Positions 8,691-26,686 of a DNA stretch of 36,437 nucleotides are shown piece by piece. Both the position numbers and the translations under genes were made by a program. Below the pieces are notes generated by a model. That model did not search any database, was not told the DNA's origin, and worked only from the letters and a program-made list of their open reading frames with translations. Source of the DNA: a virus; IMG/VR virus record IMGVR_UViG_3300036832_000776, positions 1 through 36,437 of that record; one strand, given 5' to 3'. Every line of letters starts with the position of its first letter. The first letter of the stretch is position 1.

Positions 8691-8766
8691 TGTTCTCAGG
8701 CGAGGGAGGTCGCCATTGAGCGGCTACACTAAAGCCAGCGCGGGGAAAACAAAAGGGGTCGCCACA

Positions 8767-8988: not shown

Positions 8989-9239
8989 CGCTGATCCTCA
9001 GTTGGTGGCGCGCCTACCAGCGCAGCATCGACCTTCGCCTCTTGTGGCCGATCTGCAAGCAGGGCGCTGCGGAGCGCTTCGTGTTTACCCCGCTCAATGA
9101 CCCCGATGACGTGAAGCGGCGCGACGACCAAGCATTGGACTATGCCCGCGCGGCGTTCGCGGTCCACGCCTTCAACGATCCGGCGTGGCTGACTTTGGGT
9201 GAGGATGAGATCGTCCGGCAGATCGACGCGCTCGAATAG
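8976..9239 (+). CDS. Small phage protein (87 aa), unknown function
   Basis: The ATG at 8976 lies inside the end of the zinc-finger gene (13-nt overlap), indicating coupled translation. It starts MAIVALILSWWRAYQRSID, a short hydrophobic N-terminus that is probably not a true signal peptide, followed by a charged helical part (DDVKRRDDQALDYARAAF) and DEIVRQIDALE. It ends just before a hairpin at 9244. I do not recognise the family. Confidence 0.55.
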   Translation: MAIVALILSWWRAYQRSIDLRLLWPICKQGAAERFVFTPLNDPDDVKRRDDQALDYARAAFAVHAFNDPAWLTLGEDEIVRQIDALE

Positions 9240-9243
9240 AAAG

Positions 9244-9263
9244 GGAGGGCCGAAGCCCTCCCC
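9244..9263 (-). terminator. Rho-independent-like terminator with TTCG loop
   Basis: Read on the minus strand this is GGGAGGGC-TTCG-GCCCTCCC, an 8-bp perfect stem with the very stable TTCG tetraloop, followed by TTTCTATT. It lies 30 nt after the stop of the minus-strand proline-rich gene (9294). It could also slow plus-strand transcripts from 8767-9239, but the T-rich tail is on the minus side. Confidence 0.7.
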
Positions 9264-9293
9264 AACCATGCGCTTCTCGCTTTGGTCGTTCGC

Positions 9294-10112
9294 TTACTTC
9301 TTTGGCCCCGGCACGGCTGGCGGGCCTTCAGGCGATTCCGGCGGCAGACCCTGATCGGGGCGCGGCGGGCGCGGCTGCGGCCAGACGCCCGGTGGACGCT
9401 GCCCCGGAGGACGTGGCCACACGCCGGGCTGATCGCCGGGCAAGCCATGATCGGGGTGCGGCTGGCTGCCCGGCAGGTCGTGACCGGGGCTTAGCGACGG
9501 ATCGATCACGATCCAACGATAGCCGACGCCAACGATCCACACGAAGGCGATGATTAGGCCGGTGATCGAGGGCGGCAGCGGCGGCCACACCGAACCCGGC
9601 GGCAGCGCAATCGGCGGCATCGGATGTCCACCTTCCGGCACGCCATAACCCGGATCGACCGGGCGACCTCCCGGCGCAATCGGATGAGACACTCCCGGCT
9701 GGTCACCCGGCAGACCCTGATCGGGGCGCGGCCCTCCCGGCGCAATTGGATGGGACGGCCTACCGCCCGGATAGATTGGATGGCTGGGATAGATCGGCTG
9801 CAACGGCGGCCAAACCTCCACTGGCGGGGTCGGCCAGACGCCCGGCGCAACCGGCACGCCGTAATCCGGATCAACCGGGTAGGTCGGCGGAATCGGGTGC
9901 GACGGATGGTTGCCGCCCGGAGGGTTGGGCCACACGGTCACCGGCGGCAGCGGGATGCCGTAACCCGGATCGACCGGGGCATCGACGCCGGGCAGCGTGT
10001 TGTCGATATAATCCGGCGGCTTGCCGCCCCAGATGCCGGGGGGCTGACCGGGAAGCTCGTTGCTTGGACCGACCGGCATGATGTCGAGGTAGCCCTTTAC
10101 ATATTGACCCAT
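9294..10112 (-). CDS. Proline/glycine-rich repeat protein (272 aa)
   Basis: About half the residues are Pro or Gly, arranged in imperfect repeats such as PDQGLPGDQPGV, SHPIAPGG and VDPGYG(V/I)P. One non-repetitive hydrophobic segment (SITGLIIAFVWIVGVGYRWIVID, about residues 183-205) could be a membrane helix or a buried beta strand pair. There is no signal peptide. GGAGGAG lies 7 nt before the ATG. A promoter-like sequence precedes it and a terminator follows, so it may be a separate transcription unit. The extended polyproline-like chain suggests a virion surface or linker protein. It is also a conceivable substrate for the phage's own prolyl hydroxylase (24303-24848); that is speculation. 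Confidence 0.6.
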   Translation of the reverse strand: MGQYVKGYLDIMPVGPSNELPGQPPGIWGGKPPDYIDNTLPGVDAPVDPGYGIPLPPVTVWPNPPGGNHPSHPIPPTYPVDPDYGVPVAPGVWPTPPVEVWPPLQPIYPSHPIYPGGRPSHPIAPGGPRPDQGLPGDQPGVSHPIAPGGRPVDPGYGVPEGGHPMPPIALPPGSVWPPLPPSITGLIIAFVWIVGVGYRWIVIDPSLSPGHDLPGSQPHPDHGLPGDQPGVWPRPPGQRPPGVWPQPRPPRPDQGLPPESPEGPPAVPGPKK

Positions 10113-13100: not shown

Positions 13101-14113
13101 TGCAGCGCCGCCACCTTGACCGCCTCTTCGATCTTCTTGGTGTACCAATCCGCGCCCGACCCCTTGTGGTCCTTGAGCGCGTCCTTGGCTTCCTCGGCGA
13201 TGATGTGGGCGAGCGCGTCGTCAATCGCGGGCGTCGAGTTGGTCGAGTTGACCCGGCCGTCCTTGTAGCCCGCCTCCTTCAGCCAATCCTGCGCCCGCTT
13301 GGCCAAATCCCCGGCGACCTCGCCGACATTGCGCGACCCCTCCTTCTGCTCCGGCTGCTCCATCAACGGCATCTTGGACATCGCGTGCAGGCGCTCCGCG
13401 CTGAGCGCCTTCATGTTCACTTCCGGCGCGGGTCCGAGAGCGGCGGGCTTGTCCTCCTTGGGCGCTTTGGCCTCGCCCTTGCCCGCGCCCTTGGCCGGGG
13501 CCTTGCCCTTGGCTGGACCTTGGGCGGGGCCAGCCGCCGCCTCTGAGGCGGCTTTGCCCTGCTTCTGGACCGATAGCGCCTCGGGATCGGAAGGGCCGCC
13601 AGCGGCCTTCTGTGGCCCTCCACCGCCGCCGCCATGGCCGGGACCGAACTGGCCCTTGTTCTTGGGCTGCCCGCGCGGGTGTTTGCCCTCTTCAAACTTG
13701 GCGATCTCGCCCTCGTCGCCGAACGCCAGCATCAGCGGCGGCGGCAAGGCGACGTTCATCGCTTGGCCGGAGACGTCGTTGAGCAGGCTGACCGGGTTCA
13801 CCCACCCCCACGCGTCGTGCTCGTGGTTGAGCTTGGGCACGAACTCGTCCTCGACGTCGCAGACGAAGGTGGAGAAATCGACCCCGTCCTTGACCCGGCG
13901 CATGTGCAGGCGGCCGACCCCGCCCAGCCGGTGGCCGGTCTCCTCGAAGAACTCGCGCCACGCGGCCTGATCAGCCTCTTCGCCCTCCTTGATGCCGCCG
14001 CCGGGAAACGCCCAGCCCTCGCCGTCGGTGCGGCGGCACATCAGGATGCGGCCCGCCTTCGAGCGCGCGATCACCCCGGCCGCATGGACGATGTCGCCGT
14101 CTTCGCCGTCCAT
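10193..14113 (-). CDS. Giant multi-domain virion-type protein with N-terminal Nudix hydrolase (1306 aa)
   Basis: Start ATG 14113 overlaps the preceding stop (TGATG). Residues 1-135 form a Nudix domain with an intact box (GGIKEGE, then REFFEETG, about 39-61), the Mg-dependent site that hydrolyses nucleoside diphosphates linked to X. A basic linker EEGKHPRGQPKNKGQFGPG (about 141-159) and an Ala/Pro/Lys-rich stretch follow. A helical domain then contains YDPVTQDLWFMRTFGRMTGTL, a motif of DUF7178-like phage proteins. A second EEGKHPRGQPGNPGQFGPG linker leads to a C-terminal part with a Gly/Ala/Val-rich hydrophobic segment (AIMGAVTIAGVSVLGFG) and a domain with AIGAWEDGAEDTVM and AAAMKGALADQRAVM. 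The size, hydrophobic stretch and position suggest an internal or ejected virion protein. Between about 11674 and 11990 another frame looks coding (see that entry), so this may really be two genes or a frameshifted pair. Confidence 0.7.
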   Translation of the reverse strand: MDGEDGDIVHAAGVIARSKAGRILMCRRTDGEGWAFPGGGIKEGEEADQAAWREFFEETGHRLGGVGRLHMRRVKDGVDFSTFVCDVEDEFVPKLNHEHDAWGWVNPVSLLNDVSGQAMNVALPPPLMLAFGDEGEIAKFEEGKHPRGQPKNKGQFGPGHGGGGGGPQKAAGGPSDPEALSVQKQGKAASEAAAGPAQGPAKGKAPAKGAGKGEAKAPKEDKPAALGPAPEVNMKALSAERLHAMSKMPLMEQPEQKEGSRNVGEVAGDLAKRAQDWLKEAGYKDGRVNSTNSTPAIDDALAHIIAEEAKDALKDHKGSGADWYTKKIEEAVKVAALHHPEIAEEGSPAQTAFKLALAVTSQGETVDSNAGLADRAYESWKQNPSFDKQGNQTGNKFNLGEGEGAFSAKHAPEMLANFAKYDKMVEDLGPEKTREFLHKKTTMKEMIDAGIIKKPVGGFAMDEPVYGSAIFGPKVGQGFFQNLSGNYDPVTQDLWFMRTFGRMTGTLRDVVKTSKGVDDMYERFRKALGDETGEDLSGASREDLDARSKDRFKQAEKDYETHGAEYRAAEKERQRRVKTGEDHSDLLQQPEAAMAAKRMDAYHNGVQEDPGSAADRKWRGDIVNRAREKLKAEGTEMSNADLQATIWYPEKDLWKHMGSRGPRGGLRDYSAAQQTIARKKGHGDDELRRLLGRDPDPDPQPAKSAQKPKPKAGAGAGPGTGGEGTGRGAGPGGEGPGGERPAGGGQPGGGADRRRPDSGRNDGRGFGPAARPDDAGGTQRHDGGHPQADGLGGRGLAAVADAVARLDARTARLSRRADADWEEGKHPRGQPGNPGQFGPGGAQAKKAEPAAPAAKAGPETPAAPKAPAAPKSSAGPAKGGEDPDKLDIPAVEWVHKLIDRHSANVEARRKHKAKMAKHIQNVDAFFKDHAVHGAIAEVAADAVKETPDMFGEVLVKKGAEFVAEHVSEVVNNAIMGAVTIAGVSVLGFGLPHLIASAAVGYAVEKAAEWLGITPENAGKLIKKAVKAIGAKVGGENSISKLMASLPWERAETAKFEGEQFVSSNVQKGTDIPSAVKALNSKRHKALLTASHDIDAALGITDSQDRSAIGAWEDGAEDTVMTVSKGATMAQLKVAAAMKGALADQRAVMVALANPKGKGVIYQFEVKGTPDTINDGLLSTAIEYHTIVPKDGGATVYIASADGNEKVMKAVKEAAEHFDAKVAYHRVDAELVGSNKDDASDEEQRRDAQQRYARIIKGSGVRGADDIWDGIQLRYAASFREEAQADELAAIADAVERLDARFARLQL
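11674..11990 (-). other. Alternative-frame coding segment inside the giant gene (frameshift candidate)
   Basis: In the frame of the giant gene this stretch reads as Gly/Arg-rich low-complexity with codons mostly ending in A (GGA, CGA, GCA), unlike the rest of the genome. In the +1 frame the same bases give G/C-ending codons and an acidic, natural-looking sequence (DPMTPEELNAMTAGIRKLMG and repeated EEDP-type motifs), ending in TAA at 11676-11674. The switch lies near a run of four C at 11974-11977. Removing one base there would join the upstream domain smoothly to this tail. The downstream part of the giant ORF has no ATG, GTG or TTG near 11750 to start on its own. Possible explanations are a base-calling error, a real frameshift mutation, or programmed frameshifting. 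Confidence 0.6.
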
Positions 14114-14661
14114 CAGCGCGTCATGTGGGTGCGGTTGGAGACGGCCTGATCCCATTCCGCCATCGCGTGCTGAAGGGTCTCCTCTGGGTGCTGGCCGCCC
14201 TTGCCCCATTCGGCGATCTGCTTGCCCTTGGCCGGATTGGTCTTGTTCAACTTCTCCAGATATTCCAAGGTCGGATTGGCGTCGTCCCGGCCGTTGCGGA
14301 CCATCGCCTCTTCGCAGGCGTCAAGCCGCGCGTCGAGGGTGTCGCAATGGGCGGCGATCTTCTCCAGCAAGCGATCCTCGTCGTAGCGCGCCTCGGCCTT
14401 GGCCAGCGGGTCGGCGTCGTCGCTGACCGGCAGGTGGTAGAGCGCGTCCTTGCCCGGATGAGGATCGATGTGGCCGGGGCCGTTGTCGGCCGCCGCGCCC
14501 GCGCTGGCTGGAGCGGCCATCACCGTGCCGTCGTCCGCTTTGTCGATGCCGCTGATCTTCCCAGCGTTCTTCGACGCGTAGAGAACCCGTTCGGCCTTTT
14601 CCGGGCCGTAGGTCTTCTCCATCGCCGACTTGATTTTTTCGCCCTTGGCTGTCAGCGGCAT
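14113..14661 (-). CDS. Phage protein with conserved 'GEKIxxAMEKxYG' N-terminus (182 aa)
   Basis: Starts at ATG 14661 behind GGAGGGCGAA (14667-14675). The N-terminus (AKGEKIKSAMEKTYGPEKAE, then RVLYASKNAGKISGID) matches a short module found in many phage head or portal-associated proteins, where it precedes a variable tail (recalled pattern). A coiled-coil-like segment LLEKIAAHCDTLDARLDACEEA follows, resembling the ADAV-RLDAR-ARL repeats of the giant gene downstream. A C-terminal part reads PAKGKQIAEWGKGGQHPEE. It is likely a virion-associated protein coupled to the Nudix-headed giant gene. Confidence 0.6.
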   Translation of the reverse strand: MPLTAKGEKIKSAMEKTYGPEKAERVLYASKNAGKISGIDKADDGTVMAAPASAGAAADNGPGHIDPHPGKDALYHLPVSDDADPLAKAEARYDEDRLLEKIAAHCDTLDARLDACEEAMVRNGRDDANPTLEYLEKLNKTNPAKGKQIAEWGKGGQHPEETLQHAMAEWDQAVSNRTHMTR

Positions 14662-15162: not shown

Positions 15163-15524
15163 CGTGAGGTGATGGTCAAGGTGCCGGGGGTGAACTGCGC
15201 GACGTCGCCCGCCTTGATCGGCTTGGGCACCGCAATCGCCCCCGACCCCATGAACTCGCCGCTCACCCCGTTCCAATTGCCGACGAAGGTCGGCGTGCCC
15301 CAATCGGCGGTCGCGGGCGGAAAGCTGACATTGTCGGTGTTCGAGGCCACGGTCGGGTTCGACCCGCTGTTGAGGAACGGCGTCGGCCCCTGCCGCGCAT
15401 AGCCATTCCCGGCAAGCTCGTTCGCCCCGGTGTCGCCGGGGTCGGCCGAGTGCAGCGAGGCGAAGGTGTTATTGGTCAGGACCTGAAGGATGGCCGCTTG
15501 GCCCTCTGGCGACAGACCGGACAT
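15159..15524 (-). CDS. Tail fibre-associated protein with 'LHSADPGDTGANEL' module (121 aa)
   Basis: ATG 15524 overlaps the stop of the S74-type fibre (TAATG) and has GGGAG upstream. The protein begins MSGLSPEGQAAILQVLTNN and carries FASLHSADPGDTGANELAG with NGYARQ, a pattern common in small phage tail or fibre-associated proteins. The rest is a beta-rich, Gly/Asn-rich domain ending LTITSR. The role is probably structural at the tail tip or as a fibre adaptor (inference from pattern and neighbours). Confidence 0.6.
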   Translation of the reverse strand: MSGLSPEGQAAILQVLTNNTFASLHSADPGDTGANELAGNGYARQGPTPFLNSGSNPTVASNTDNVSFPPATADWGTPTFVGNWNGVSGEFMGSGAIAVPKPIKAGDVAQFTPGTLTITSR

Positions 15525-16618
15525 TATCTCGCTCCCTCTAACGCCTCGATGCGGGCTTGCGCCTCTTGCAACGTCTTGGTCAACGCGGCGATCACCGTCC
15601 ACGGGTTGGGCGATTGGATGCAATCCTCCTGATCCTTGACCCCGGTGGCGGCGTCCTCGATCAGCGTCTCTTGAAGCTCATGCGCGACCAGCCCCCAGCG
15701 CTCCTTGTCGTCGCCCTTGATCAGGTCTTTGTAGGGGCGCAGCTTGTAGCTGATCGGCCTCAGCGCCTTCAGCCGCTCCCACATCGACGGCAGCGGCGTG
15801 AGGTCGCGCTTGATGCGGTAATCGGAGTTGAAGGCCAGCGTGCCGAAATAAGTGGCGTCGATCCACCACTGCGTAGAACCGTTGCTGCTGTCATACCAAG
15901 CATGAAACCAATTGCCGCCGTAAGCGCCGTTGATCCCTTGACGGCATCGATAGCCGGGGCACCAAAGATAGCCATTCAGTGAAACGCTGGCGTCGCTTCT
16001 TAAGCTAAGATTGCCACTGCCGGTCAAGTTGCTGAGCACCAGCGAACTGTCGGCATAGCTCCAGTACAACCATCCAACGATTGTCCCGGCTGGATTCTGA
16101 AACCCAACATGGCAATTGGCGGTCGCGTTTGGGGCGCGCGTATAGAGCACGCCGCTATTGGCATGGACACCGCCACTGGCGGTTATTTCGCCGGTCGCGG
16201 TCAAAGCGCCGTTGACGGTCGCCCCGGCGCTGGTGATCTGAACTGTCGCCACGCCCTCGGAGACAAGGTTCAGCGTCCCGCCGGTGATGCTGAAACCGTA
16301 GTTGCCGCCGTACAGGTCGATGTGGTGGCTAAGGTCGAGCGGGCCGCTCCCGGTCGCGTTGACGAAGGTCTCGCCGTTGGCGAATGTCGCCGGTTCGGCG
16401 AAGTACGCCGACGCCCTGAATGTCATGTCGCCGCTGATCAATCCACCGCTCGACCACGCGCCGTTCACCCGGCCGTACAGATTGCCGTCCTCGGGCGCGT
16501 CGGCGAATATCGCGACGCCGCCAGAGGCGGTCCATTTCACCCCGTCCCATGTCCATTTCAGATTGTTGGCGACGAACTCGTCGCCGGGGCTTGGGGTATC
16601 GGGGAAGTTCGCGCCCAT
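15524..16618 (-). CDS. Tail fibre with C-terminal S74 intramolecular chaperone (364 aa)
   Basis: Start ATG 16618 lies just after the upstream stop (TGAGATG); an in-frame ATG at 16642 is the alternative. The N-terminus NFPDTPSPGDEF and WTWDGVKWTASGG is the same attachment-like module as in the two upstream fibres. A repetitive beta region (Gly/Ala/Thr/Asn-rich, typical of a trimeric shaft) follows. The C-terminal 115 residues form a peptidase S74 chaperone: NSDYRIKRDLTPLPSMW, LKALRPISYKL, WGLVAHELQETL, and a coiled-coil end (ALTKTLQEAQARIEALEGAR). In this family a Ser/Lys pair (here the Ser of SDYRIK and its Lys) cleaves the chaperone off after the trimer has folded. It likely binds the host receptor. 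Confidence 0.88.
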   Translation of the reverse strand: MGANFPDTPSPGDEFVANNLKWTWDGVKWTASGGVAIFADAPEDGNLYGRVNGAWSSGGLISGDMTFRASAYFAEPATFANGETFVNATGSGPLDLSHHIDLYGGNYGFSITGGTLNLVSEGVATVQITSAGATVNGALTATGEITASGGVHANSGVLYTRAPNATANCHVGFQNPAGTIVGWLYWSYADSSLVLSNLTGSGNLSLRSDASVSLNGYLWCPGYRCRQGINGAYGGNWFHAWYDSSNGSTQWWIDATYFGTLAFNSDYRIKRDLTPLPSMWERLKALRPISYKLRPYKDLIKGDDKERWGLVAHELQETLIEDAATGVKDQEDCIQSPNPWTVIAALTKTLQEAQARIEALEGAR

Positions 16619-16619
16619 C

Positions 16620-17960
16620 TCAGAAATCCGCAAAAGCTGCATAGTGAAACTTGATCATGTCGCCCGCCGCCACCGCTACGCCCTGCACCCCCATTGAAAC
16701 CGACGTGGTGCTGGCGCTCCACACCCCTGCCTGAAGCGAGACGCCGGTGTTTTGCTCCCAGCATGACCCGACCGCGCCGGTATGCGGATCGTAAAGCGTG
16801 AAGGTGGGACGAATACGCATCGACGGGAACGTCGCGGTGAGGCCGCACCAATTGTTGTTGGCGGACACGCCGGTGTAGACCTGAAGCGCCGACGCATCCT
16901 GCGACGCCGTTCCCGGCGCGACGCCATAAGTGTATGAGGTTCTGAAGTATCGCTGGCAATCGGCGAGATTGTCGGCAAACGACTTGATCTCAGGTTCCGC
17001 GTTCACCGCCGCCTCGCCCACCACCAGCCCCACGCGGGTAAACCAGATGTTGGCATTCGCCATCTCGACCGGATTCAGCGCGCCGGGGGCGCTTTGAAAG
17101 TAGCCATCAACCCACACATCGGGGGCGGTGACGTAGGTCGAACCCGTGCCAAGACTAAAAACCAGACATGCGGCAAGCGCGTTGTCGGCAACCGCCCAAG
17201 CTCCAACCGTATCGCCGGGAATAGTGATGCGGATTTTTTGCCATGCGCCAGCCACCAGATCGAAGGTGAACACATAGGAGCGGTCCTGCGCGCCTCTTTG
17301 CAGCGCTCCAGCATAGGTGCCAGCCAGCGTCGTGTAGACCGTAAACACCAAGGTGACCGGCTGGGCCGACGCGGTGCCGAAATTGGCGACGTTGAAATCG
17401 CACCCTTCGATGCCGGTAAAAAACTCAAGAGTGTCAGTCGCGCCAACGGCGGTCGCCGTCGTTGTTGACCATTGGAGGGAATGCAGGCAGCCGGTGTCCC
17501 TGATATCAATCTCGTCAGCCCCGGCTTGCCGAGCAAAACCGGCATTGGCTGGGGTGCCGCCAAACCACCACCGATCAACAATATAGCCCTGCGCCGTTAG
17601 CTGGCCGGTGGTCCACTGATTGATCGCGATGTCTGGGTTGCCGACGCAATTGCGAGCGATGTTTGTGACGTTGACCCACGCGCCGTCCCTGCGACCGTAG
17701 GCGCTGCCGTCGCTCTTCGCGTCGGGCAGCGTCGGCTGGTTGATCGTCACTACCCATTGTTCGGATGTGCCGTCGTCGTAGCGCACGTAGAGGGCAAGGC
17801 CGACGGTGTCGAACCACAGGTCGCCCGGCTTGGGGTTGGCGGGCGGTGTGTCGGACGCGACGACGGCGGCCGGGGCGTTGGTGGAAATCCACTTCTCGCC
17901 GTCCCAAATCCACGACCCGTAGAGGTCGCCGCTGGTCGGATTGGCGGGGAAATCAAGCAC
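16620..17960 (-). CDS. Tail fibre/receptor-binding protein (446 aa) with shared N-terminal module
   Basis: Starts best at GTG 17960 (VLDFPANPTSGDLYG), overlapping the upstream stop and matching the MLDFPNNP start of the neighbouring fibre; ATG 17978 is an alternative. Residues about 1-100 contain two adaptor-like modules (IWDGEKWIS; PKPGDLWFDTVGLALYV ... QWVV, DGSAYGRRDGAWVNV), both repeated in the other fibres. The rest is beta-rich and resembles the jelly-roll type of carbohydrate-binding domains, starting with NPDIAINQW and containing YIVDRWW. There is no S74 chaperone here. It is probably a second host-recognition fibre or a fibre tip. Confidence 0.75.
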   Translation of the reverse strand: MLDFPANPTSGDLYGSWIWDGEKWISTNAPAAVVASDTPPANPKPGDLWFDTVGLALYVRYDDGTSEQWVVTINQPTLPDAKSDGSAYGRRDGAWVNVTNIARNCVGNPDIAINQWTTGQLTAQGYIVDRWWFGGTPANAGFARQAGADEIDIRDTGCLHSLQWSTTTATAVGATDTLEFFTGIEGCDFNVANFGTASAQPVTLVFTVYTTLAGTYAGALQRGAQDRSYVFTFDLVAGAWQKIRITIPGDTVGAWAVADNALAACLVFSLGTGSTYVTAPDVWVDGYFQSAPGALNPVEMANANIWFTRVGLVVGEAAVNAEPEIKSFADNLADCQRYFRTSYTYGVAPGTASQDASALQVYTGVSANNNWCGLTATFPSMRIRPTFTLYDPHTGAVGSCWEQNTGVSLQAGVWSASTTSVSMGVQGVAVAAGDMIKFHYAAFADF

Positions 17961-19674
17961 GGGCGGCCTCAAGCGCAATGATGCGTTCGGTCAGTTCATC
18001 ATTCTTCATCGCCAGTGTCTCGATGCGCTCCATCGCTTCCTGCAACGCCTTGGTCAGCGCGGCGGTCACCAGCATGAGATTGGGTGATTGCAGAATTTCC
18101 TTGTCGTCCTTCACCCCGGTCGCCGCCCGTTCGACCAGCGTCTCTTGCAGTTCGTGGGCGACGAAGCCCCACCGCTCCGCATCGTCGCGTTCGATCACCG
18201 GCTTCGCGCCTTTCGGCGCAGATGGGTAGGAGGATTCCTTTTGCTGATAGCGGATCGGCCTCAGCGCCTTGACCCTGTCCCACATCGACGGCAGCGGCGC
18301 GATGTTGGTCTTGATGCGATAGTCGCAGGCCGGATTGGCGAAATCCCTTGAGGTCCAGAATTGAAACGAGGTCATGCCAATCGACCAACCGCCGATATAA
18401 AAATTGCCGTTCGTGGCCATCCCGAAATTGGTCGCGAATTGACCGGGGATGTGGAAGGTCATGAAGGCTTCGCCGCCCTTGGTCTGCACCATGAAGCTGC
18501 CGCCGCCCGCTTGCACGATGTTGCCAGCGTTCGGGTAGACCGTCACCGCCCCGCTGCCGTTAAAGCCGTTGGCGGCGTTGACCATGTCGCTCGCATAAAA
18601 GCCGCTGGTCGAAATGCTGCTAGTGGCCAATGTCCCAATGGACACCTCCCCACTGGCGCGGTTGATGGCAATCGGGCTGTCGATATACGTTCCGCCGTCA
18701 TCGAAACGCTGGATGCTGAAAGCAGAACCGACGTTGCCGCCGGTTTCAGCCGCGCCGTCGCCAAGGTTGATCGTCCAACGCACATCCGCCCCAACGTAGC
18801 CGATGATCTGGTTGCCTTGGCCAGCGGGCGTGTAAAGCTGCAACTGCCCCCAGCCCTCGGTCGTGATGCTGATGCCACCGGTTAACGCGCCGCCCGCGCG
18901 CGGGAGGAACTCATCCGAGATTGGCGACCAGACGGCGCTCTCGCGTCCATACATGACGCCGTCCAGCGGTGCGTCGCCGATGCTGCCCCCGGCGCTCGAT
19001 GTCGCCACCCATTGGTTGGTGTCTTGATCGGCGAACCAGACGAACAATTGCCCGCCGATTGAATCCCACCACAGGTCGCCGGGTTGCGGCGAGGCAGGCG
19101 GCTGATCAGCGACGGTGACGCTCGAACCGCCCGCCGCGCCGCCCAAGAGCAGATTGAGCAGGACTTGATTGCTGTCGGCTAACGGCGCGCCGCCGCTGGA
19201 ATGGTGGATGACCGGAACATAGACATACTCGCCCGCCTCGCTGGTCACGTCCGAGCACTCGTAGACACGCGCGTTGGCCGCCGTGTCGAAGTCCTGAAGA
19301 AACAGCATGTCGCGCGGCTTGATCAGCGACAGGATGGTCGAGGCGTCCACCCCGTCGCTGGTGGTCTTGCAGATGTAGAGCGTGGTGATCAGGGTCTGAT
19401 CGGCATTGTCGCCACTGATGGTGTAGCCCTTGGCCGGACGGACGGTCGGCGGATTGGTCGAGGCGTCCCACGTGTACTCGCCGGTCGCGCCGTAGGAACC
19501 GCCGCCGGGCGGGCCTTGCGGACCCATCGGGCCGACCGGGCCTTGCGGGCCGACCGGTCCCTGCGGACCGCCCTGCACCGTGGTCATCACCCATTTGACC
19601 CCGTCCCACTGCCAGACCAGATCGCCTGATTCGTAGGTGTCCAAGAGCGCCGGGTTGTTGGGGAAATCGAGCAT
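17953..19674 (-). CDS. Collagen-like tail fibre with S74-type chaperone bearing Cys at the cleavage site (573 aa)
   Basis: Starts at ATG 19674 (TGATG with the upstream stop; GTG 19677 is also possible). Domain order: LDFP-type N-terminal module with WQWDGVKWV; seven Gly-X-Y triplets (GPQGPVGPQGPVGPMGPQ then GPP, about residues 36-57); an adaptor module (PQPGDLWWDSIGGQLFVWF); a beta-repeat shaft; and a C-terminal S74 chaperone (DYRIKTNIAPLPSMW, KALRPIRYQQ, WGFVAHELQETL, coiled-coil end). The residue at the expected Ser of the S74 site is Cys (codon TGC): PACDYRIK, against NSDYRIK in the sister fibre. Cys could still support an N-S acyl shift, or cleavage may be altered. The triplets should form a collagen-like triple helix and are candidate substrates for the phage prolyl hydroxylase. 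Confidence 0.87.
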   Translation of the reverse strand: MLDFPNNPALLDTYESGDLVWQWDGVKWVMTTVQGGPQGPVGPQGPVGPMGPQGPPGGGSYGATGEYTWDASTNPPTVRPAKGYTISGDNADQTLITTLYICKTTSDGVDASTILSLIKPRDMLFLQDFDTAANARVYECSDVTSEAGEYVYVPVIHHSSGGAPLADSNQVLLNLLLGGAAGGSSVTVADQPPASPQPGDLWWDSIGGQLFVWFADQDTNQWVATSSAGGSIGDAPLDGVMYGRESAVWSPISDEFLPRAGGALTGGISITTEGWGQLQLYTPAGQGNQIIGYVGADVRWTINLGDGAAETGGNVGSAFSIQRFDDGGTYIDSPIAINRASGEVSIGTLATSSISTSGFYASDMVNAANGFNGSGAVTVYPNAGNIVQAGGGSFMVQTKGGEAFMTFHIPGQFATNFGMATNGNFYIGGWSIGMTSFQFWTSRDFANPACDYRIKTNIAPLPSMWDRVKALRPIRYQQKESSYPSAPKGAKPVIERDDAERWGFVAHELQETLVERAATGVKDDKEILQSPNLMLVTAALTKALQEAMERIETLAMKNDELTERIIALEAARA

Positions 19675-21071
19675 CACTTCGCCCTGATGATCTTGTTCAG
19701 CGCCATGAACGGCTGCATCACATTGTGGGCCGCGCCGCCGCCGTTGGCGTAAATGCCGATGCCGGTGCCAGACCCGCTATTGTAGACCCCGGTGGCCGCG
19801 CCGTAGACGCCCAAGCCGACGCCAGCGGCGTAATTGAAGCCGCCGGTGCCAGCGCCGATGATTTGCGCGTAATCGCCAGCGACGCCCATGCCGGTGCCCG
19901 CGCCATAGACGCCGATGCCGCAGCCGCGAAGGTCAGTCTGCCCCGCAGTATGCAACCCCCCTCCGGGCGAACCCAACGCATACATGCCGGTGTTGGCCTG
20001 CATGACATTGGCATGAACGTGACCGGGGTCGGCGAGACTATGCGCGTGTCCGGGGTCGGAGAGGCCATGGTAATGCAGGTTTTGACTATGGTTGTGGCCG
20101 GGGTCGCCAAAGCTGTGATTGTGGCCCGGATCGTAAAGATTGTGGGCGTGGGTCGGGTCGTTCATGCCGTGATTGTGGCCGGGGTCGGCGATATCATGCG
20201 CGTGCGACGGCATCTCGTCGGCGGTCAGGGTGTGGGTGATCTCGCCGCCGGTGGCGAACAGCGCATAACCGCCGCCTGCGCCGATGGTCACCCGGTCGAT
20301 CAGGTTGGGCGCGGCGAAGGTGACCCCGTCGGCCGACAGCATCGGGCCGAGCACCGGATAGTCCACAACGTTGTAGACCACCCCGTCGCACATCAGGAAG
20401 TTCTCGGGCGCGCCCACGCCGACGAAATCGAGCACGACGCCGATAGGCACGCCCGCGACCTCGGACCAGCCGCCATCCTTGCGCGCGTAGGCTTTCCCGT
20501 CCTCGGCCGCGTCCGGCAGGGTGGCGGCGTTGGTGGTGCAGACCCATTGGGTCGAGCTTTGATCGTAGTAGGAAATGTAAAGCTGGCCGCCCATGGTGTC
20601 CCACCACAGGTGCCCCGGCGTGGTGTCGTAGGGCGGGTCCGGACCGATGGAGACGCTCGCCCCGCCGCCGCCGGGACCGCCGCCTTCGCCGGGCGGCCCT
20701 TCCGGCCCCTGCGGTCCGGGCGGGCCGGTGTCGCCCGTGTCGCCTTTCGGGCCGGGCGGCCCCTGCGGCCCTACAGCGCCCCCAGAACCGCCAAGCTGGG
20801 TCCATTGCGCCCCATCCCACGCGCCGGGCGGGATGGCCGCGTTGGCGACCCACAGGCCGCCTTGGTAGGCGACGTGATCGGCTGAGGCGTAGGCGGCGCT
20901 GGCGCGCCAATGCCGCACCGCCAGAAAATCGACGGCGCTCTGGTCGAACACCCCCAACTGGAGATCGGCGAGGTTGACGTAGAGTTCGCCCGGCGTCGAA
21001 GGCCCGACGCCCTCGAACGGCGGCCTGCGCCCAGCAATCCACGACCGCGCTACGCGCAGGATGTTGGGCAT
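19674..21071 (-). CDS. Collagen-like tail fibre with phage tail-collar domain and HxH repeat tip (465 aa)
   Basis: AGGGCAGGGCG precedes ATG 21071. The order is: an N-terminal part (ELYVNLADLQLGVFD), a WDGAQWTQLGG module, ten Gly-X-Y triplets starting GPQGPPGPKGDTGDTGPP (about residues 99-130), an adaptor module (GHLWWDTMGGQLYISYYD), and a tail-collar-type domain (VGAPENFLMCDG, YPVLGPML, PNLIDRVTIGAGGG, HTLTADEMPSHAH). Next come repeated DPGHxH or related units giving eight HxH motifs (SHAHD, GHNHG, THAHN, GHNHS twice, LHYHG, GHAHS, GHVHA), then a Gly-rich end and NVMQPFMALNKIIRAK. HxH motifs in the T4 long-tail-fibre tip bind iron; the same is likely here. It probably contacts the host surface. 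Confidence 0.9.
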   Translation of the reverse strand: MPNILRVARSWIAGRRPPFEGVGPSTPGELYVNLADLQLGVFDQSAVDFLAVRHWRASAAYASADHVAYQGGLWVANAAIPPGAWDGAQWTQLGGSGGAVGPQGPPGPKGDTGDTGPPGPQGPEGPPGEGGGPGGGGASVSIGPDPPYDTTPGHLWWDTMGGQLYISYYDQSSTQWVCTTNAATLPDAAEDGKAYARKDGGWSEVAGVPIGVVLDFVGVGAPENFLMCDGVVYNVVDYPVLGPMLSADGVTFAAPNLIDRVTIGAGGGYALFATGGEITHTLTADEMPSHAHDIADPGHNHGMNDPTHAHNLYDPGHNHSFGDPGHNHSQNLHYHGLSDPGHAHSLADPGHVHANVMQANTGMYALGSPGGGLHTAGQTDLRGCGIGVYGAGTGMGVAGDYAQIIGAGTGGFNYAAGVGLGVYGAATGVYNSGSGTGIGIYANGGGAAHNVMQPFMALNKIIRAK

Positions 21072-21083
21072 CGCCCTGCCCTT

Positions 21084-21857
21084 TTAAGCTGCGGCGCGCC
21101 CCTTGGCGGTGAGGGCCTCGTCAGGCGCGTCGATCAGATCATAGACATAACGGTACTGGCAGCGGCAATTGATCAGGACGCCCGGCATGTCGAACTCGTC
21201 CATGTAGCCTTCCGGGTGCTTGATCAGGCCCTGCTCGTCGGCCCACGATCCCCGGCGGACGTAGAACAGGTCGTGCCGCGCCGCGTGCTCCGGCCGGTGC
21301 TTGCGCTCGATTTCCCATGTCGCGTCCCAGAAGCCGCCAATCGACCCGGCATCGGCGGCCACCACCTCGTCCATGGTCGCCATCAGCTTCTTGGTCTGAT
21401 CGACCGCCGTCATCCGCTCCTGCGCGCGGGCGTCGCGCATCGCCTTGGTGATCGGCTTGGCGTGCTCGCGCGCCGCGCCCGGCTTGGCCCCGGCGGTGGC
21501 CAAGCCAAGGAAGCGGTTCTGCACCCGCTCCAAGGCCTGCCGGTGCGCGCCGTCCACCGCCTCGCGGGCGGCGTACAGCCGCTTCTCCAGTTCGCCCCGA
21601 AGCTTGGGTTCGAGTTGGTCCATGCTGAGCTTGGACACTTGGCCCTTGCGGCCCTGAAGACGCCCCCGTCCCAGCGCGCGGGTGAAAGCCCCCGATAACG
21701 CCCGTTCAACCTTGGCCTTGGCGGTGTCGGCATCGAGCGCGCTCTCGGCCGCCGCGTTCAGCCGCGTCGTCCAATCGTTGACGTCGGCCGGACTGGTGAA
21801 GCCGAAGTGATTGAAGTGGCTGACCGCCTCGCGCAGGAGCTTGTTGAACGCCGCCAT
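21084..21857 (-). CDS. Phage head morphogenesis protein, SPP1 gp7/Mu gpF-like
   Basis: The 257-residue protein is helical in its first 150 residues and ends with the family's signature region: WEIERKHRPEHAARHDLFYVR, then PGVLINCRCQYRYV, where the CRC motif and His/Arg residues are typical of the MuF C-terminal domain. These minor head proteins sit near the portal and help procapsid assembly or DNA entry. It follows the portal gene by 10 nt, the standard arrangement, and is followed by the fibre genes instead of a protease, which is unusual. Confidence 0.85.
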   Translation of the reverse strand: MAAFNKLLREAVSHFNHFGFTSPADVNDWTTRLNAAAESALDADTAKAKVERALSGAFTRALGRGRLQGRKGQVSKLSMDQLEPKLRGELEKRLYAAREAVDGAHRQALERVQNRFLGLATAGAKPGAAREHAKPITKAMRDARAQERMTAVDQTKKLMATMDEVVAADAGSIGGFWDATWEIERKHRPEHAARHDLFYVRRGSWADEQGLIKHPEGYMDEFDMPGVLINCRCQYRYVYDLIDAPDEALTAKGRAAA

Positions 21858-21867
21858 CAGCGCACCA

Positions 21868-23574
21868 TCAGCGCCGCACGCCGGAACGCTGCGCCAGCCC
21901 GTCCATCACCGCGCTCACCAATTGCTTGGTCTTGTCGTGCTTCTGCGGCAGGCGCTGGACCGAATCGTGCAGCCGGTTGAGGGTGTGGCTGATCTTGTCG
22001 TCGTAGCTGTCGCTCGACCCGCCGCCAGAGGCGCTGATCCGTTTCGGTTTCGGCACCTTCTCGGCCCCGAACGGCGACCCGCCGCCGCCCGGTTGCCCAC
22101 CGCCGCCGGGCGAGGGCTTCTGGCCCGGCTGGCCGGGTTGGCCGGGTTGTCCGCCGCCTTGCGCCAATTGCTTCTGTTGCTCGTCCTCCTGCTCCTTCTG
22201 CTCGTTGAGATGATCTTCGAGCGCCTCGATGTCGAACTCCAGCGGCGTCCGGAACAGCGTCTCCTGATCGTTGATGGTGTCGGCCAGCCACGACGCCAGC
22301 GCCGCCTGATTGTCGGGGTCGCTGATCGGCAGGAGCGTCTGCACCGCCGCGATGGCGGCGTTGAGGATCACCTCCTCGACCTGAATCTTCTCGTTGTCCT
22401 CCGGTTCCAGCCAGTTCGGCCATTCCGCCTTGAAGCTGTTCTTCCATGCGTAGAAGGCGCTGACATAGGGGATGCGGCCGAACACCTCGGGGTAGCGGCG
22501 CTGCACCGTCTGGTAGAAATCCGGCCCCCATGCGCGATGCATGGTCATCTCATCGAACCAGCGATATTGCGGGTCCATCTCCTCGCGCATCCGCTTGACG
22601 AACATCGCCACCCGGCGGGCGTCCTCGGTGCCCTCGCCGAAGCCCTCGACAAAGGTCTCCTCGTTCAACAGCACCGCTGGCATGTCGGCGGCGACGGCGC
22701 AGTTCTTCAGGATGTTGCCGCGCGCCATGGTCAACGGCGCTTCCATGTTCATCAGGTCGAGCGAGGCGATTTCCTCATCCGGACTGATATTGATGACGTT
22801 GCCAATTTCGGCCTCTTTGACGACGTTGCGCTTCTGTCCGAACGCCGCCGACATGACGTTGTCCACGAAGCCGCCCGGCATCTTGATCTTGGCCACGATC
22901 ACGCCCGCCTTGGTGGCGACCATGTCGTCGGCGATCATCGTCTTCAGGTAGCTCTTCAGCGGGAACCACGCGCGCTGATAGACCGAGCGGCCGACGAAGC
23001 CGTAAGAGGCGCTGGTCCACGAGAGATAGACCGGGCGCTCGTTGATCACCACTTGGGTGCGCGAGGGGTGATAGGCCTGCCCCTGCACCGCGACGTGGCT
23101 TCCCTGCTTGAGAAAGTCGAGCGCGTTGGGGTTCTGGTTGAACACCAGCGACCCGGCGGTGTTGAGCGGGTCCCAGATGTTGAAGGCGATGCGCAGGTCG
23201 CGCATCTGCTTGGGGGTCAGCGGCCGGTCAGGCGGCACGCCCTCGGCGACCACGCCGCAGGTGGCTATGCCATAGACGCGCGACATCACCTTGGTTTGAC
23301 GAATGGCCTCGGTCGCGCCGATGAATTTGAACTCGTCCTCGAACGCCTGCATCGCCACCGACGGCGCGCCCGGTGCGCTCAGCTTGCGCGCTTGGCTTTG
23401 CGCCATCACCACCGGGGTCTCGGCCATCTTGGCCCCGACCGGGTGGGCGACGTAGACCGACTTGCAGGCTTGGTAGCTGGGTTCGTCTCCCGGCGTCAGT
23501 TCCGAGAGCAGCATGAAGTCCTTCAGGCTGTTCGGCAGCCCGGTGCCAGCCCGCAGGTTGATATATTCGACCAT
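21868..23574 (-). CDS. Portal protein (DUF1073-like)
   Basis: The 568-residue protein has the portal core of the DUF1073 type: ACKSVYVAHPVGAKMAETPV early, then AIRQTKVMSRVYGIATCGVV, NIWDPLNTAGSLVFNQNPN, LSWTSASYGFVGRSVYQRAW, and a helical C-terminal wing (EMDPQYRWFDEMTMHRAWGPDF). The last 110 residues are a Gln/Gly/Pro-rich flexible segment and a charged tail, common in portals. Twelve copies form the DNA channel at the capsid vertex. Start ATG 23574 has GAGGGCGAA upstream (23578-23586) in a 21-bp block also present before the decoration gene. It lies upstream of the MuF gene as expected. Confidence 0.87.
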   Translation of the reverse strand: MVEYINLRAGTGLPNSLKDFMLLSELTPGDEPSYQACKSVYVAHPVGAKMAETPVVMAQSQARKLSAPGAPSVAMQAFEDEFKFIGATEAIRQTKVMSRVYGIATCGVVAEGVPPDRPLTPKQMRDLRIAFNIWDPLNTAGSLVFNQNPNALDFLKQGSHVAVQGQAYHPSRTQVVINERPVYLSWTSASYGFVGRSVYQRAWFPLKSYLKTMIADDMVATKAGVIVAKIKMPGGFVDNVMSAAFGQKRNVVKEAEIGNVINISPDEEIASLDLMNMEAPLTMARGNILKNCAVAADMPAVLLNEETFVEGFGEGTEDARRVAMFVKRMREEMDPQYRWFDEMTMHRAWGPDFYQTVQRRYPEVFGRIPYVSAFYAWKNSFKAEWPNWLEPEDNEKIQVEEVILNAAIAAVQTLLPISDPDNQAALASWLADTINDQETLFRTPLEFDIEALEDHLNEQKEQEDEQQKQLAQGGGQPGQPGQPGQKPSPGGGGQPGGGGSPFGAEKVPKPKRISASGGGSSDSYDDKISHTLNRLHDSVQRLPQKHDKTKQLVSAVMDGLAQRSGVRR

Positions 23575-23636
23575 CGTTTCGCCCTCGATGTGAAGGCGAA
23601 GCTACACCGAAAGCGCGCTCGTGCTAAACCGGGTCG

Positions 23637-23783
23637 ATGCTCGAACCTCTGATCGCGTTCCTGATCATGCTCCTGATCGCCGTGGTGGCGCTCGAAGGCT
23701 GGCTGATTCAGCGCGACATCAGACGCGCGACCGCCGCCCTCCTGCGCGGGCTGGAGGAACTGTTGGGCAAGAGGAATAGATGA
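23637..23783 (+). CDS. Small membrane protein (48 aa), plus-strand island
   Basis: ATG 23637 to TGA 23783. A single strong hydrophobic helix (LIAFLIMLLIAVVALEGWLI, about residues 5-24) is followed by a basic, helical tail (RRATAALLRGLEELLGKRNR). It is divergent from the portal gene and overlaps the next plus-strand ORF (ATGA). It might be a membrane anchor or a lysis accessory, but the evidence is only topology. It is short, and its ribosome-binding site is unclear. Confidence 0.45.
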   Translation: MLEPLIAFLIMLLIAVVALEGWLIQRDIRRATAALLRGLEELLGKRNR

Positions 23784-23995
23784 CCAGTTTCGAGAAGGAA
23801 GCTTCGCTCGCCCTAACCGGGCTGCTGGAGGACATGCGCTATCTGCGGGCCGAGCTTGACCGCCTGCACGCGCTGCAAGACGTCCGGCAGCAGTCGCTGG
23901 TCGAACTCCTGCGCGAGCTTTACCGTCGCGACTCACAACCGCTTACGGCGGACCATGGTCAGGATGGTCCACAAACTGCGCCCACGTCGCCGTAG
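23780..23995 (+). CDS. Small coiled-coil protein (71 aa), plus-strand island
   Basis: ATG 23780 overlaps the stop of the small membrane gene (ATGA). Residues 8-52 form a strong amphipathic helix (LALTGLLEDMRYLRAELDRL, then LRELYRR), followed by a disordered tail. The last 53 nt overlap the convergent coiled-coil gene on the minus strand. With the preceding gene it makes a two-gene unit of membrane anchor plus coiled coil. Function is unknown. Confidence 0.45.
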   Translation: MTSFEKEASLALTGLLEDMRYLRAELDRLHALQDVRQQSLVELLRELYRRDSQPLTADHGQDGPQTAPTSP

Positions 23996-24206
23996 CGATC
24001 TGGCGCTCAGTCAGATCGACCCGCTCCTCCAGCCGCTTGAGTTGAATCGTCAGGGCCTCGAAGCCCGCCAAGTGGGTGTCGCCAAGACCTTGGATTTGAA
24101 CCTCCAGCGCTCGCGCCAGACGGTCGCCGCGCTTGAGGCTTCCAAACAATATCGCCGCACACACAATCATTCCGGCGGCGATCACCCACAAGGCCAGCGT
24201 CAGCAT
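23943..24206 (-). CDS. Membrane-anchored coiled-coil protein (87 aa)
   Basis: Starts at ATG 24206 with GGGGAGAGGGGA directly upstream. An N-terminal transmembrane helix (LTLALWVIAAGMIVCAAILF) is followed by heptad-like helix (LARALEVQIQGLGDTHLAGF ... LKRLEERVDLTERQ). The topology resembles inner-membrane spanin-like or other envelope-active phage proteins, but there is no outer-membrane partner or endolysin in the window to support a lysis role. It is convergent with 23780-23995. Confidence 0.5.
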   Translation of the reverse strand: MLTLALWVIAAGMIVCAAILFGSLKRGDRLARALEVQIQGLGDTHLAGFEALTIQLKRLEERVDLTERQIATATWAQFVDHPDHGPP

Positions 24207-24302
24207 TCCCCTCTCCCCAGATGTTCCACGGGCATTTGCGCCAAGGCTTACCACACGGGCATTTGTCGGAGCGGAACCCTCGCATCATGCGCCTCCAGAC
24301 CA

Positions 24303-24848
24303 TCAGACAAACCACGTGATCATTGCGTAGCGGGTGCCAGCGGTCACTGGCAGAATCTGGTGCGGATACATGAAGTTGGGCGGGAACATGATCGCACACC
24401 CAGCCGTCAACCGGATGGTCTCGCGCTGCCAGAACTGGAACTCGCCGCCGCTATAGGAATCATTGAGGGCAATCGACATCGCCAGCACGCGTGGCGCATC
24501 ATCATCGACATGAGAATCAATCCGCTGTCCGGTCTCGTAGCGCAGGATGTCGAAGCCCGAATCCGATTGCGTGTGGATCGGATATTTCTCCCCATAGCGG
24601 CGCAGGGCTTGGCGGGTCACTTTCACCAAGGTGTGATCGGCTTGCCTGACCGCGTCCAACCGGCCCTGCGGCAGCGGGTAGCCGCCGCTGACCGCCAACG
24701 ACAATGGGAAGCTCGTGCAGGTGCGGTCATAGCCCTGATGCTTGGGCACGCGCCACTCGATCCCCTCGGTCACGGCCAAGATGCCCGTCAGGGTCGCTTT
24801 GCTTAACAGAGGTTCTGTGACGACGATGTAGTCAGCTAGTTTTTCCAC
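24303..24848 (-). CDS. 2-oxoglutarate/Fe(II) oxygenase, prolyl 4-hydroxylase-like (181 aa)
   Basis: The C-terminal half carries the double-stranded beta-helix motifs of prolyl 4-hydroxylase-type oxygenases: HxD at H113/D115 (RIDSHVDDD), the distal His H163 (YPHQI), and R173 (GTRYAMITWF) for the 2-oxoglutarate carboxylate. FDILRYETGQ and SGGEFQFW are the usual flanking strands. All expected iron and cosubstrate ligands are present, and the length (181) fits a catalytic domain alone. The enzyme would use O2 and 2-oxoglutarate to hydroxylate a peptide. The phage's own collagen-like fibres (17953-21071) supply Gly-X-Pro sequences, the classical substrate. Alternative substrates are host proteins or nucleobases. 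It lies just before the portal block on the same strand. Confidence 0.88.
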   Translation of the reverse strand: MEKLADYIVVTEPLLSKATLTGILAVTEGIEWRVPKHQGYDRTCTSFPLSLAVSGGYPLPQGRLDAVRQADHTLVKVTRQALRRYGEKYPIHTQSDSGFDILRYETGQRIDSHVDDDAPRVLAMSIALNDSYSGGEFQFWQRETIRLTAGCAIMFPPNFMYPHQILPVTAGTRYAMITWFV

Positions 24849-25159: not shown

Positions 25160-25852
25160 TTAGACGGCTGACAAGCGGCTTGCCCGCTTGCGCCACAACG
25201 CGCTTAAGCCAATGAGGCCGAAGCCGGTGATCAACATCGCCCATGTTGACGCCTCTGGAACAACCGCCGAAACCACCGGCGCGAGTCCGCTGATCTCGAT
25301 GTGCTTGATTTCATCGAAGCCGGTCAGCGATTTGATGTTCACTTCATCGAACGCGCCGCCGACCGCTGTGGCCGAGAATTGCTTGTCGGTGTCGGCCGCG
25401 TCAAATTCCGTGCCAACACCATCGGAGACATGCGCGCCGGAGAAGGCGCTGATGGTGAAGCTGTCGGTCGATTGGCCGCTGACCGGAGTCAATTGCGCGT
25501 CGAACGCGATGTCGGTGAAGGTGAAGCCCGGAATGGTGATGTCGAGGCCGTTGAAGTCCACGAAGCCATGCGCCGGAGTGATGGTGCCGAAGCCGCTGGA
25601 TAGGTCGATTGAAAGGTTGAGCATCCCGCCGTCAGACGAGAGGTCCATGACCGGAGCGCCGGACTTTTGGCTGCCGATATCGCCGAAGCCGAGTGCGGTC
25701 GCCTTGGCGGCGTCGAGAAACACCTTGACCTCGCTTGGCCCCTCGCACGTCCCGCCCTCGCTGTCAGGGCCGCAGAAGGTTGCGGTCACCGCCCACGCAG
25801 GGCTTACGCCTATCGCCGCCAGCAACGCTGCGGCCAGATAGAAAGACTTCAT
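25160..25852 (-). CDS. Exported PEPxxWA-CTERM protein 1 (230 aa)
   Basis: Start ATG 25852 is preceded by AAGGGG; the frame stays open upstream but runs through the tRNA. A signal peptide (MKSFYLAAALLAAIGVSPAWA) leads to a beta-rich, Thr/Ser/Gly/Asp-rich body without recognised enzyme motifs. The C-terminus is a full sorting signal: VPEASTWAMLITGFGLIG, hydrophobic helix, then WRKRASRL. In bacteria such tails are cut by an exosortase and the protein is displayed or exported, often with polysaccharide. No exosortase is in the window, so a host enzyme would be needed. It belongs to a minus-strand block between the terminase and portal genes. Confidence 0.85.
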   Translation of the reverse strand: MKSFYLAAALLAAIGVSPAWAVTATFCGPDSEGGTCEGPSEVKVFLDAAKATALGFGDIGSQKSGAPVMDLSSDGGMLNLSIDLSSGFGTITPAHGFVDFNGLDITIPGFTFTDIAFDAQLTPVSGQSTDSFTISAFSGAHVSDGVGTEFDAADTDKQFSATAVGGAFDEVNIKSLTGFDEIKHIEISGLAPVVSAVVPEASTWAMLITGFGLIGLSALWRKRASRLSAV

Positions 25853-25875
25853 TTGGTTCACCCCTTCGTTTGGTT

Positions 25876-25959
25876 TGGTGGGCGACCGGGGAGTCGAACC
25901 CCGCTGCACAAAGGCACGGGGTTTACAGCCCCAATCAGCCACCGGACTTGTCGTCGCCC
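25876..25959 (-). tRNA. tRNA-Tyr (anticodon GTA), CCA encoded
   Basis: The 84-nt minus-strand sequence folds as a class II tRNA. Its acceptor stem is a perfect 7 bp (GGGCGAC/GTCGCCC) with encoded ACCA. The anticodon arm is TGGGG-CTGTAAA-CCCCG with anticodon GTA, the variable arm has a TGC/GCA stem, and the T arm is CGGGG-TTCGACT-CCCCG. Long variable arms are normal for bacterial tRNA-Tyr. The D arm is weak (only about three pairs, CAA/TTG). Its 5' end lies one nucleotide after the stop codon of the second PEPxxWA-CTERM gene, so the tRNA is embedded between two protein genes and must be processed from their transcript. Confidence 0.9.
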
Positions 25960-25960
25960 T

Positions 25961-26686
25961 TTAGAACGCCAGCCGCTCTTTGCGCGCCTTGCGGAAGCCC
26001 ATCAGCCCGATCAGGCCAAAGCCGGTCAACAGCATCGCCCACTGGGAAGGTTCCGGAACGCCCGTTTCCATGCTCTGGTTGAAGCCCGTTATACTACCTG
26101 CGGTTGTGAGATTGAGCGAGGCCGCCTCGGTCATCGAGAACGGGCCGAGCGCGCTGAACGCCGACAGGCGCGAACCGGCGAAGCTGTCCGGGTCGGTGGC
26201 CGGGACGCCGCTCACGCTCTCCAACAGCGCGCCCGGCGTATTGAGCGGGTTGGCCCCTTGCGCATTGGCCGCGTCGGCGAAGAACGACAGCGTCGAGGCG
26301 CTCGACCCGACCGCGTTGTTGAAGGTCAGGCTGCCACTGTTCTGGACGAAGCTGACCGGCGGAAGGAAGCTGGTGTCGCCCGCCACCAAGGTGATGGTGA
26401 TCGGCGCGCCTGATTCATTGAGGATGTTCGAGCTTGAAAGCTGAAGCTCGTTGATCTTGCCGAACGTGCTCTGCGCCAGCGTCAACTGGACGAACGCCCC
26501 GCCGACCGTCTGGTCGATGGTCAAGAGGTTGTTGGCCCCGCCCGACACGTCGCAGGACAGTTCGCCGTCGAAGCACGAGAACGTGCTGCCGTTGGCGTTG
26601 ATCGAGAGTTGCAGCCGCGCCTCGGCGGGTGTCGATGCAGCCGCCCATGCGGTGATCAGTGCAGCAAGCGAAATCAACTTAAGCAT
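25961..26686 (-). CDS. Exported PEPxxWA-CTERM protein 2 (241 aa)
   Basis: ATG 26686 has GAGGAAGATCACT upstream and overlaps the end of the preceding small gene by 8 nt. A signal peptide (MLKLISLAALITAWAAAST) leads to a beta-rich mature part with one Cys pair (FSCFDGELSCDVSG) and long strands (TIDQTVGGAFVQLTLAQS). The end is VPEPSQWAMLLTGFGLIG plus FRKARKERL, the canonical PEPxxWA-CTERM sorting tail for exosortase. The body is not obviously a duplicate of protein 1; the two share only architecture. Overlap with a neighbouring phage-type ORF argues that it is part of the phage gene order and not loose host DNA. Confidence 0.87.
   Translation of the reverse strand: MLKLISLAALITAWAAASTPAEARLQLSINANGSTFSCFDGELSCDVSGGANNLLTIDQTVGGAFVQLTLAQSTFGKINELQLSSSNILNESGAPITITLVAGDTSFLPPVSFVQNSGSLTFNNAVGSSASTLSFFADAANAQGANPLNTPGALLESVSGVPATDPDSFAGSRLSAFSALGPFSMTEAASLNLTTAGSITGFNQSMETGVPEPSQWAMLLTGFGLIGLMGFRKARKERLAF

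Follow-up and report, generated by a model that had tools for sequence, protein, structure and literature searches.

Does a phage that carries both collagen-like tail fibres and a small 2-oxoglutarate (2OG)/Fe(II) oxygenase use the enzyme to hydroxylate its own fibres and, if so, is collagen the reason? The question is raised by IMG/VR record IMGVR_UViG_3300036832_000776, an environmental phage fragment of 36,437 bases (an incomplete genome; this whole stretch is referred to as the window), in which the oxygenase, the portal protein and two fibres with Gly-X-Y runs are all encoded on the minus strand. An earlier note on this DNA had paired enzyme and fibres as a fibre-hydroxylation system. On sequence evidence, we lean towards a hydroxylase that modifies the phage's own tail fibres; the collagen-like runs are real, but they are probably not the purpose of the oxygenase, and collagen would be at most one of several targets.

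An oxygenase of the protein-hydroxylase type

The oxygenase is encoded by an open reading frame (ORF) at 24303-24848 of the minus strand, which starts with GTG; 0.73 kb separate it from the portal ORF downstream (start at 23574), as the earlier note had it. Its 181 residues match Pfam 2OG-FeII_Oxy_3 (PF13640) with an E of 2e-13, over the curated cut-off, as well as phrog_61 and phrog_3531; a match to the NCBIfam Fe2+-dependent dioxygenases falls far below cut-off. The HxD...H iron triad and the basic 2OG ligand in a double-stranded beta-helix, which mark the 2OG/Fe(II) superfamily, are present, and the ligands H113, D115 and H163 together with the 2OG-binding R173 (numbered from the start codon) are intact exactly as had been read. 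These residues are the same in each of the four closest relatives, and all four are kept across 21 phage and bacterial relatives, except in L005, which lacks the Arg.

Among solved structures, a wider profile finds Bacillus anthracis prolyl 4-hydroxylase (P4H; 3itq, 5hv0) as the best PDB match (9e-12), with human LH3 at 2e-8, and a profile of the five closest sequences gives LH3 as the best PDB match and also lists mimivirus L230. In parallel, an AlphaFold2 (AF2) model built from the 21-sequence alignment (pLDDT 95, pTM 0.90) best matches PKHD-type oxygenases (PiuC), PHD2, the Pseudomonas putida P4H (PPHD, in complex with EF-Tu) and vCPH of PBCV-1, with TM scores of about 0.6-0.72. A preliminary model of five sequences had reached a pLDDT of 50 and put P3H1 on top; its fold matches were unreliable and it was superseded by the 21-sequence model. 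Because the leading profile and fold matches are amino-acid hydroxylases, not nucleobase oxygenases, the window oxygenase is assigned, by profile and modelled fold, to the protein prolyl/lysyl hydroxylase group. An AlkB- or TET-like oxygenase acting on the bases of DNA or RNA, an alternative that the earlier note had entertained, would share the superfamily, and CcTet and AlkBH8 do appear weakly, but the leading matches of a good model are all of the other kind and the window holds no AlkB or Tet_JBP Pfam match, so that this activity is extremely improbable.

The label of prolyl-4-hydroxylase-like thus stands as regards the group, but not as regards the 2OG ligand. Indeed, ten positions after the second His, B. 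anthracis P4H, which has the same HxD...H triad, carries the Lys of a collagen prolyl 4-hydroxylase, whereas the window oxygenase and 20 of the 21 aligned sequences carry Arg. The phage enzyme shares the Arg with LH3 (by the LH3 alignment); the collagen lysyl hydroxylases LH3 and L230, however, are multidomain proteins with a fused glycosyltransferase, and the phage fibres have few collagen lysines. As for the other structural relatives, PBCV-1 vCPH (5c5t), likewise viral but from an algal virus, is described in the PDB as a prolyl hydroxylase of the collagen type and resembles the window enzyme in fold (TM about 0.68 to the model), and the PKHD-type PiuC and Sbal_3634, matched by profile and fold, are cellular gene products of about 225 residues.

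Phage 2OG-Fe(II) oxygenases have already been recorded as widespread (PMC12774648), and the class is also treated in PMC9602691. Those of phrog_61 and phrog_3531 (S-H9-1, S-T4, S-SCSM1 and similar cyanophages) have the same domain at 32-49% identity over the matched parts; in many relatives a second oxygenase-like domain is fused to the first or comes before it, in contrast to the lone domain of the window. With two distant relatives as the whole yield of a bacterial genome scan, the close family seems, at this sensitivity, to be confined to phages. One bacterial relative (L051:3894-4469, in a gammaproteobacterial metagenome-assembled genome) sits amid TPR-domain and sulfotransferase/glycosyltransferase-looking genes. 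Separately, phage genes that PHROGs and GenBank call 'ferrochelatase' (L246:5296-5880 and L193:664-1218; phrog_2954, phrog_3531) encode, in these loci, proteins that neighbour 2OG-Fe(II) domains or are joined to them; they look oxygenase-like, and the name looks like a mis-annotation.

Collagen-like runs with and without the oxygenase

The Gly-X-Y runs reported earlier in two adjacent fibres are borne out. The 574-residue tail fibre at 17953-19677 (minus strand) carries a run of 7 triplets, GPQGPVGPQGPVGPMGPQGPP, near its N terminus (19507-19569) and a C-terminal S74 chaperone domain (PF13884, E 1.5e-6). The 465-residue tail fibre at 19674-21071 (minus strand; phrog_8469 tail fibre, E 1e-38) carries a run of 10 triplets, GPQGPPGPKGDTGDTGPPGPQGPEGPPGEG, with looser GSG GAV / GGP at the flanks (Gly-X-Y run at 20673-20789, minus strand, GSGGAVGPQGPPGPKGDTGDTGPPGPQGPEGPPGEGGGP), and then a His-rich collar-type domain (LTADEMPSHAH ... 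DPGHNH repeats). The two fibres have a fibre module in common and their runs hold four Gly-Pro-Pro units in all. The runs are short (7-10 triplets), and a PF01391 match in the window (E 1e-4) is below the Pfam cut-off; they are not due to chance, since shuffled versions of the two proteins give such runs in 4/20000 and 0/20000 cases.

That phage fibres can contain collagen runs is well documented (PMC3368898, PMC8968730). In particular, the EPcl proteins of Escherichia coli prophages have Gly-X-Y runs with Pro mainly in X, like the window group, and the same paper holds bacteria and viruses to be without the prolyl hydroxylase needed for Y-position Pro (PMC3368898). A survey sets viral P4H and collagen fibres side by side and states that the use of viral P4H 'remains cryptic' (PMC9301287). 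A paper on oxygenase/tail-fibre synteny, or on the fibre as substrate, was not found in the open-access literature, although such papers could exist outside it.

One reading of the locus, that of the earlier note, is a collagen-specific prolyl hydroxylase, which would hydroxylate Y-position Pro in the Gly-X-Y runs and stabilise the triple helix. It is favoured by the best PDB profile match, since B. anthracis P4H is active on Pro-Pro-Gly peptides (PMC8968730), and by the co-occurrence that the earlier note had proposed to look for in related phages. A search of 2.9 million viral contigs found the oxygenase in seven further contigs at 58-75% identity, and in whole-record searches collagen runs were present in 5/5 enzyme-positive records reaching the fibres (G000, G002, G003, G004, G007); G001, G005 and G006 are short enzyme-positive fragments with no fibres in view. 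In the sister phage L006, whose portal is 88% and oxygenase 75% identical to those of the window, the oxygenase comes directly after the gene for head morphogenesis, and about 15 bp separate its end from the collagen/collar fibre. In the window the head-morphogenesis and collar/collagen fibre genes abut and the oxygenase stands upstream of the portal, 3.2 kb from its collar-type fibre with three genes between. As the placement differs between the two phages, the oxygenase gene has moved within the structural region and has stayed by structural genes.

The comparison with enzyme-free phages argues otherwise. Among 50 contigs that encode a homologous capsid protein and measure at least 15 kb, neither the oxygenase nor any PF13640 domain was found (the empty search with the enzyme model counts only when taken with the PF13640 search, in which all known positives were recovered), and 13 of the 50 carry collagen runs. 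Thus, the runs do not need the oxygenase and are frequent in this capsid family regardless of it. The association of enzyme and collagen has a Fisher p of 0.0025 by record over all records; restricted to records in which the fibre region is seen, it weakens to 0.015 by record and 0.07 by lineage. Moreover, if the enzyme were selected for Gly-X-Pro, Y-position Pro should be rich in the fibres of enzyme-positive phages, but no such enrichment was found: Y-position Pro amounts to 10.0% with the enzyme vs 8.8% without (p=0.96) and X-position Pro to 48% vs 46%, so that the known phage pattern of Pro in X and few in Y is unchanged.

Two observations on collagen-like genes in related records deserve mention on their own account. 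In G067 (C1:25578-25985; record of L131) several TAG codons interrupt a collagen-like frame; they may stand for Gln in Gly-Pro-Gln triplets, which would make this a recoded phage. In G024 and G025 (records of L044 and L045), contigs of about 45-50 kb, collagen-like genes are scattered among 10-12 PF13640 oxygenases per contig.

Collar-type fibres accompany the wider family

A scan with a wider alignment gave at least 569 relatives, of which the best 80 were read, with neighbouring ORFs called mechanically and fibre families grouped by single-linkage BLAST. Outside the close group, Gly-X-Y runs occur in 2 of 73 loci (836 kb). By contrast, a small collar-type fibre gene lies within 5 ORFs of the oxygenase in 66 of 84 loci (37/51 after near-duplicate removal), mostly upstream of it and with a peak at 3-4 ORFs. 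The gene contexts differ between groups of the family, comprising T4-like neighbours, lysis genes, nuclease/porin-like genes and glycosyltransferases. In the close group, a collar-region match is present in 5/5 enzyme-positive vs 4/50 enzyme-negative capsid relatives, by a test whose PHROG includes the window fibre itself; on records showing the fibre region, p is 0.002 by record and 0.02 by lineage.

The same order is found in the cultured cyanophage S-SCSM1, where a tail fibre annotated as virion protein, a short tail fibre and two small genes are followed by the oxygenase, which thus lies within the tail-fibre module. The two fibres are ORF244 and ORF245 and the oxygenase is ORF248. The virion proteome of this phage was measured (PMC9602691). 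Its fibre is 52% identical to the environmental collar-type fibres and, being annotated as both tail fibre and virion protein, anchors their annotation. Between the collar fibre and the oxygenase, most wider-family loci have small genes of unnamed families (L252:8275-8610, 8607-9407 and homologues); the two commonest families occur in 68 and 48 loci, and one member weakly matches 'tail fiber assembly' (phrog_4912).

These data separate the two halves of the earlier proposal. A link between the oxygenase and fibre genes is retained, and collagen does occur in every enzyme-positive record that reaches the fibres. A pairing specific to collagen is not, because collagen runs are found in enzyme-free relatives, Y-position Pro is not raised and the runs are rare in wider loci; together with the Arg ligand, this leaves a collagen-specific prolyl hydroxylase unlikely. 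Since the tail-fibre module is the common factor and the collar-type fibre the most frequent partner, the likely substrate lies in the fibre. Within it, the collar part is favoured over the collagen run, a minor option, because what occurs alongside the wider family is the collar-type fibre and not collagen.

One clade of relatives (L203, L222, L240, L244, L250, L260-L262) has three tandem GT25-like ORFs directly after the oxygenase and behind the collar fibres, with a DegT-type aminotransferase fragment and an Asp_Arg_Hydrox-like gene also present; the GT25 match is in one of the three ORFs and just under the Pfam cut-off. By analogy with LH3 and mimivirus L230, this hints at a hydroxylate-then-glycosylate chemistry. 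It also bears on a collagen-lysyl-hydroxylase-like enzyme, which would hydroxylate Lys in Gly-X-Lys or elsewhere in the fibres as a glycosylation site and with which the LH3-led profile of the five closest sequences, the shared Arg ligand and a single Y-position Lys in the collagen runs of G000, G007 and G004 are consistent. However, no glycosyltransferase was recognised near the window oxygenase, and the runs of G002 and G003 contain no Lys; with two enzyme-positive phages devoid of collagen lysines, this enzyme is kept only as a rival, and as a very unlikely one.

A further candidate is a modifier of a host protein, such as a translation factor or receptor, or some other auxiliary metabolic gene whose proximity to fibres is incidental. 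Cyanophage oxygenases have been predicted to take effect via the host's metabolism of 2-oxoglutarate and nitrogen (PMC9602691). Replication or nucleotide genes surround some relatives, and one of the top fold matches is the complex of P. putida P4H with EF-Tu. EF-Tu and ribosomal proteins are also substrates of bacterial enzymes in this superfamily, which lends some weight to a host target. This last point tells against modification of the phage's own fibres, and so do several features of the genomic evidence: the enzyme-positive close group amounts to about three independent lineages, a small number for the collar association; the late-region neighbours of the oxygenase may be hitch-hikers; in L017 and L020 the oxygenase is far from collar fibres; and in S-T4 and ACG-2014f a related oxygenase is not beside fibre genes, so that the linkage rule is not absolute. 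Nevertheless, the strong and repeated tail-fibre synteny in several phage groups and the relocation of the oxygenase beside the fibre in L006 argue against incidental proximity, and a host target is rather unlikely.

A possible route of fibre hydroxylation

For the favoured modification of the phage's own fibres, we infer an activity, a substrate, a residue and a benefit as follows. A cytoplasmic 2OG/Fe(II) protein hydroxylase would act on newly made tail fibres before virion assembly, drawing on O2, 2-oxoglutarate and Fe(II) to add hydroxyl groups to one or more side chains of the fibre. Its substrate would most likely be the collar-type fibre at 19674-21071, either in its His-rich collar domain, which is favoured, or in its collagen-like stretch. 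The likely benefit would be changed fibre stability or receptor binding and, in some relatives, the hydroxyl group might serve a phage glycosyltransferase.

Neighbouring genes and the phage group

On the minus strand, the genes of the window run in the order terminase-like, two PEP-CTERM, oxygenase, a small gene, portal, head morphogenesis, four fibres, a long NUDIX-containing protein and capsid genes. The portal protein (21868-23574, minus strand; phrog_146, E 6e-42) is separated from the fibres by the head morphogenesis protein (21084-21857, minus strand; phrog_324). Besides the two collagen-run fibres, there are a fibre-like protein of 452 residues (16620-17978, minus strand; phrog_3304, E 2e-5), which has the same module without a collagen run, and a fibre of 372 residues with an S74 chaperone domain (15524-16642, minus strand; PF13884, E 5e-7; phrog_1980). 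The NUDIX domain is N-terminal in a 1338-residue ORF (10193-14209, minus strand), and profile phrog_15528 connects a domain of this kind with a portal-protein family. Cultured relatives of the capsid gene share 40-55% identity with it, e.g., those of Klebsiella phage Chronis, Yersinia vB_YenM phages and Escherichia phage Rac-SA53.

The PEP-CTERM protein adjoining the oxygenase (25160-25942, minus strand) matches NF035944 just under cut-off (E 6e-8) and PF07589 over cut-off, and its true start is probably internal; the second (25961-26686, minus strand) matches NF035944 with E 9e-9. A tRNA-Tyr (GTA) gene is located between the two (25876-25959, minus strand). PEP-CTERM surface proteins, which are exosortase-sorted and here of the PEPxxWA type, recur in the phage group (window, L002, L003, L006, L007, G003, G004), which suggests an exosortase-bearing host, and a literature search found no paper with a title or abstract on phage-encoded PEP-CTERM proteins. 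Homologues of the second protein are present in all enzyme-positive records except two 7-kb fragments, and PEP-CTERM proteins were considered as the true partner of the oxygenase; they are also found in the enzyme-free relatives G030, G037, G045, G080 and G085, and a shared host type explains the co-occurrence at least as well.

Implications

Phage 2OG/Fe(II) oxygenases are usually filed as auxiliary metabolic genes. We advance, as a tentative and still doubtful generalisation, that they may largely constitute a tail-fibre maturation system, in which receptor-binding fibres would undergo O2-dependent hydroxylation, followed in some phages by glycosylation, with collagen-like fibres as one special case. 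The steady link to fibre genes makes fibre modification by these oxygenases a testable claim and, if it is true, phage adsorption would depend on the oxygen, iron and 2-oxoglutarate of the host at the time of virion assembly.

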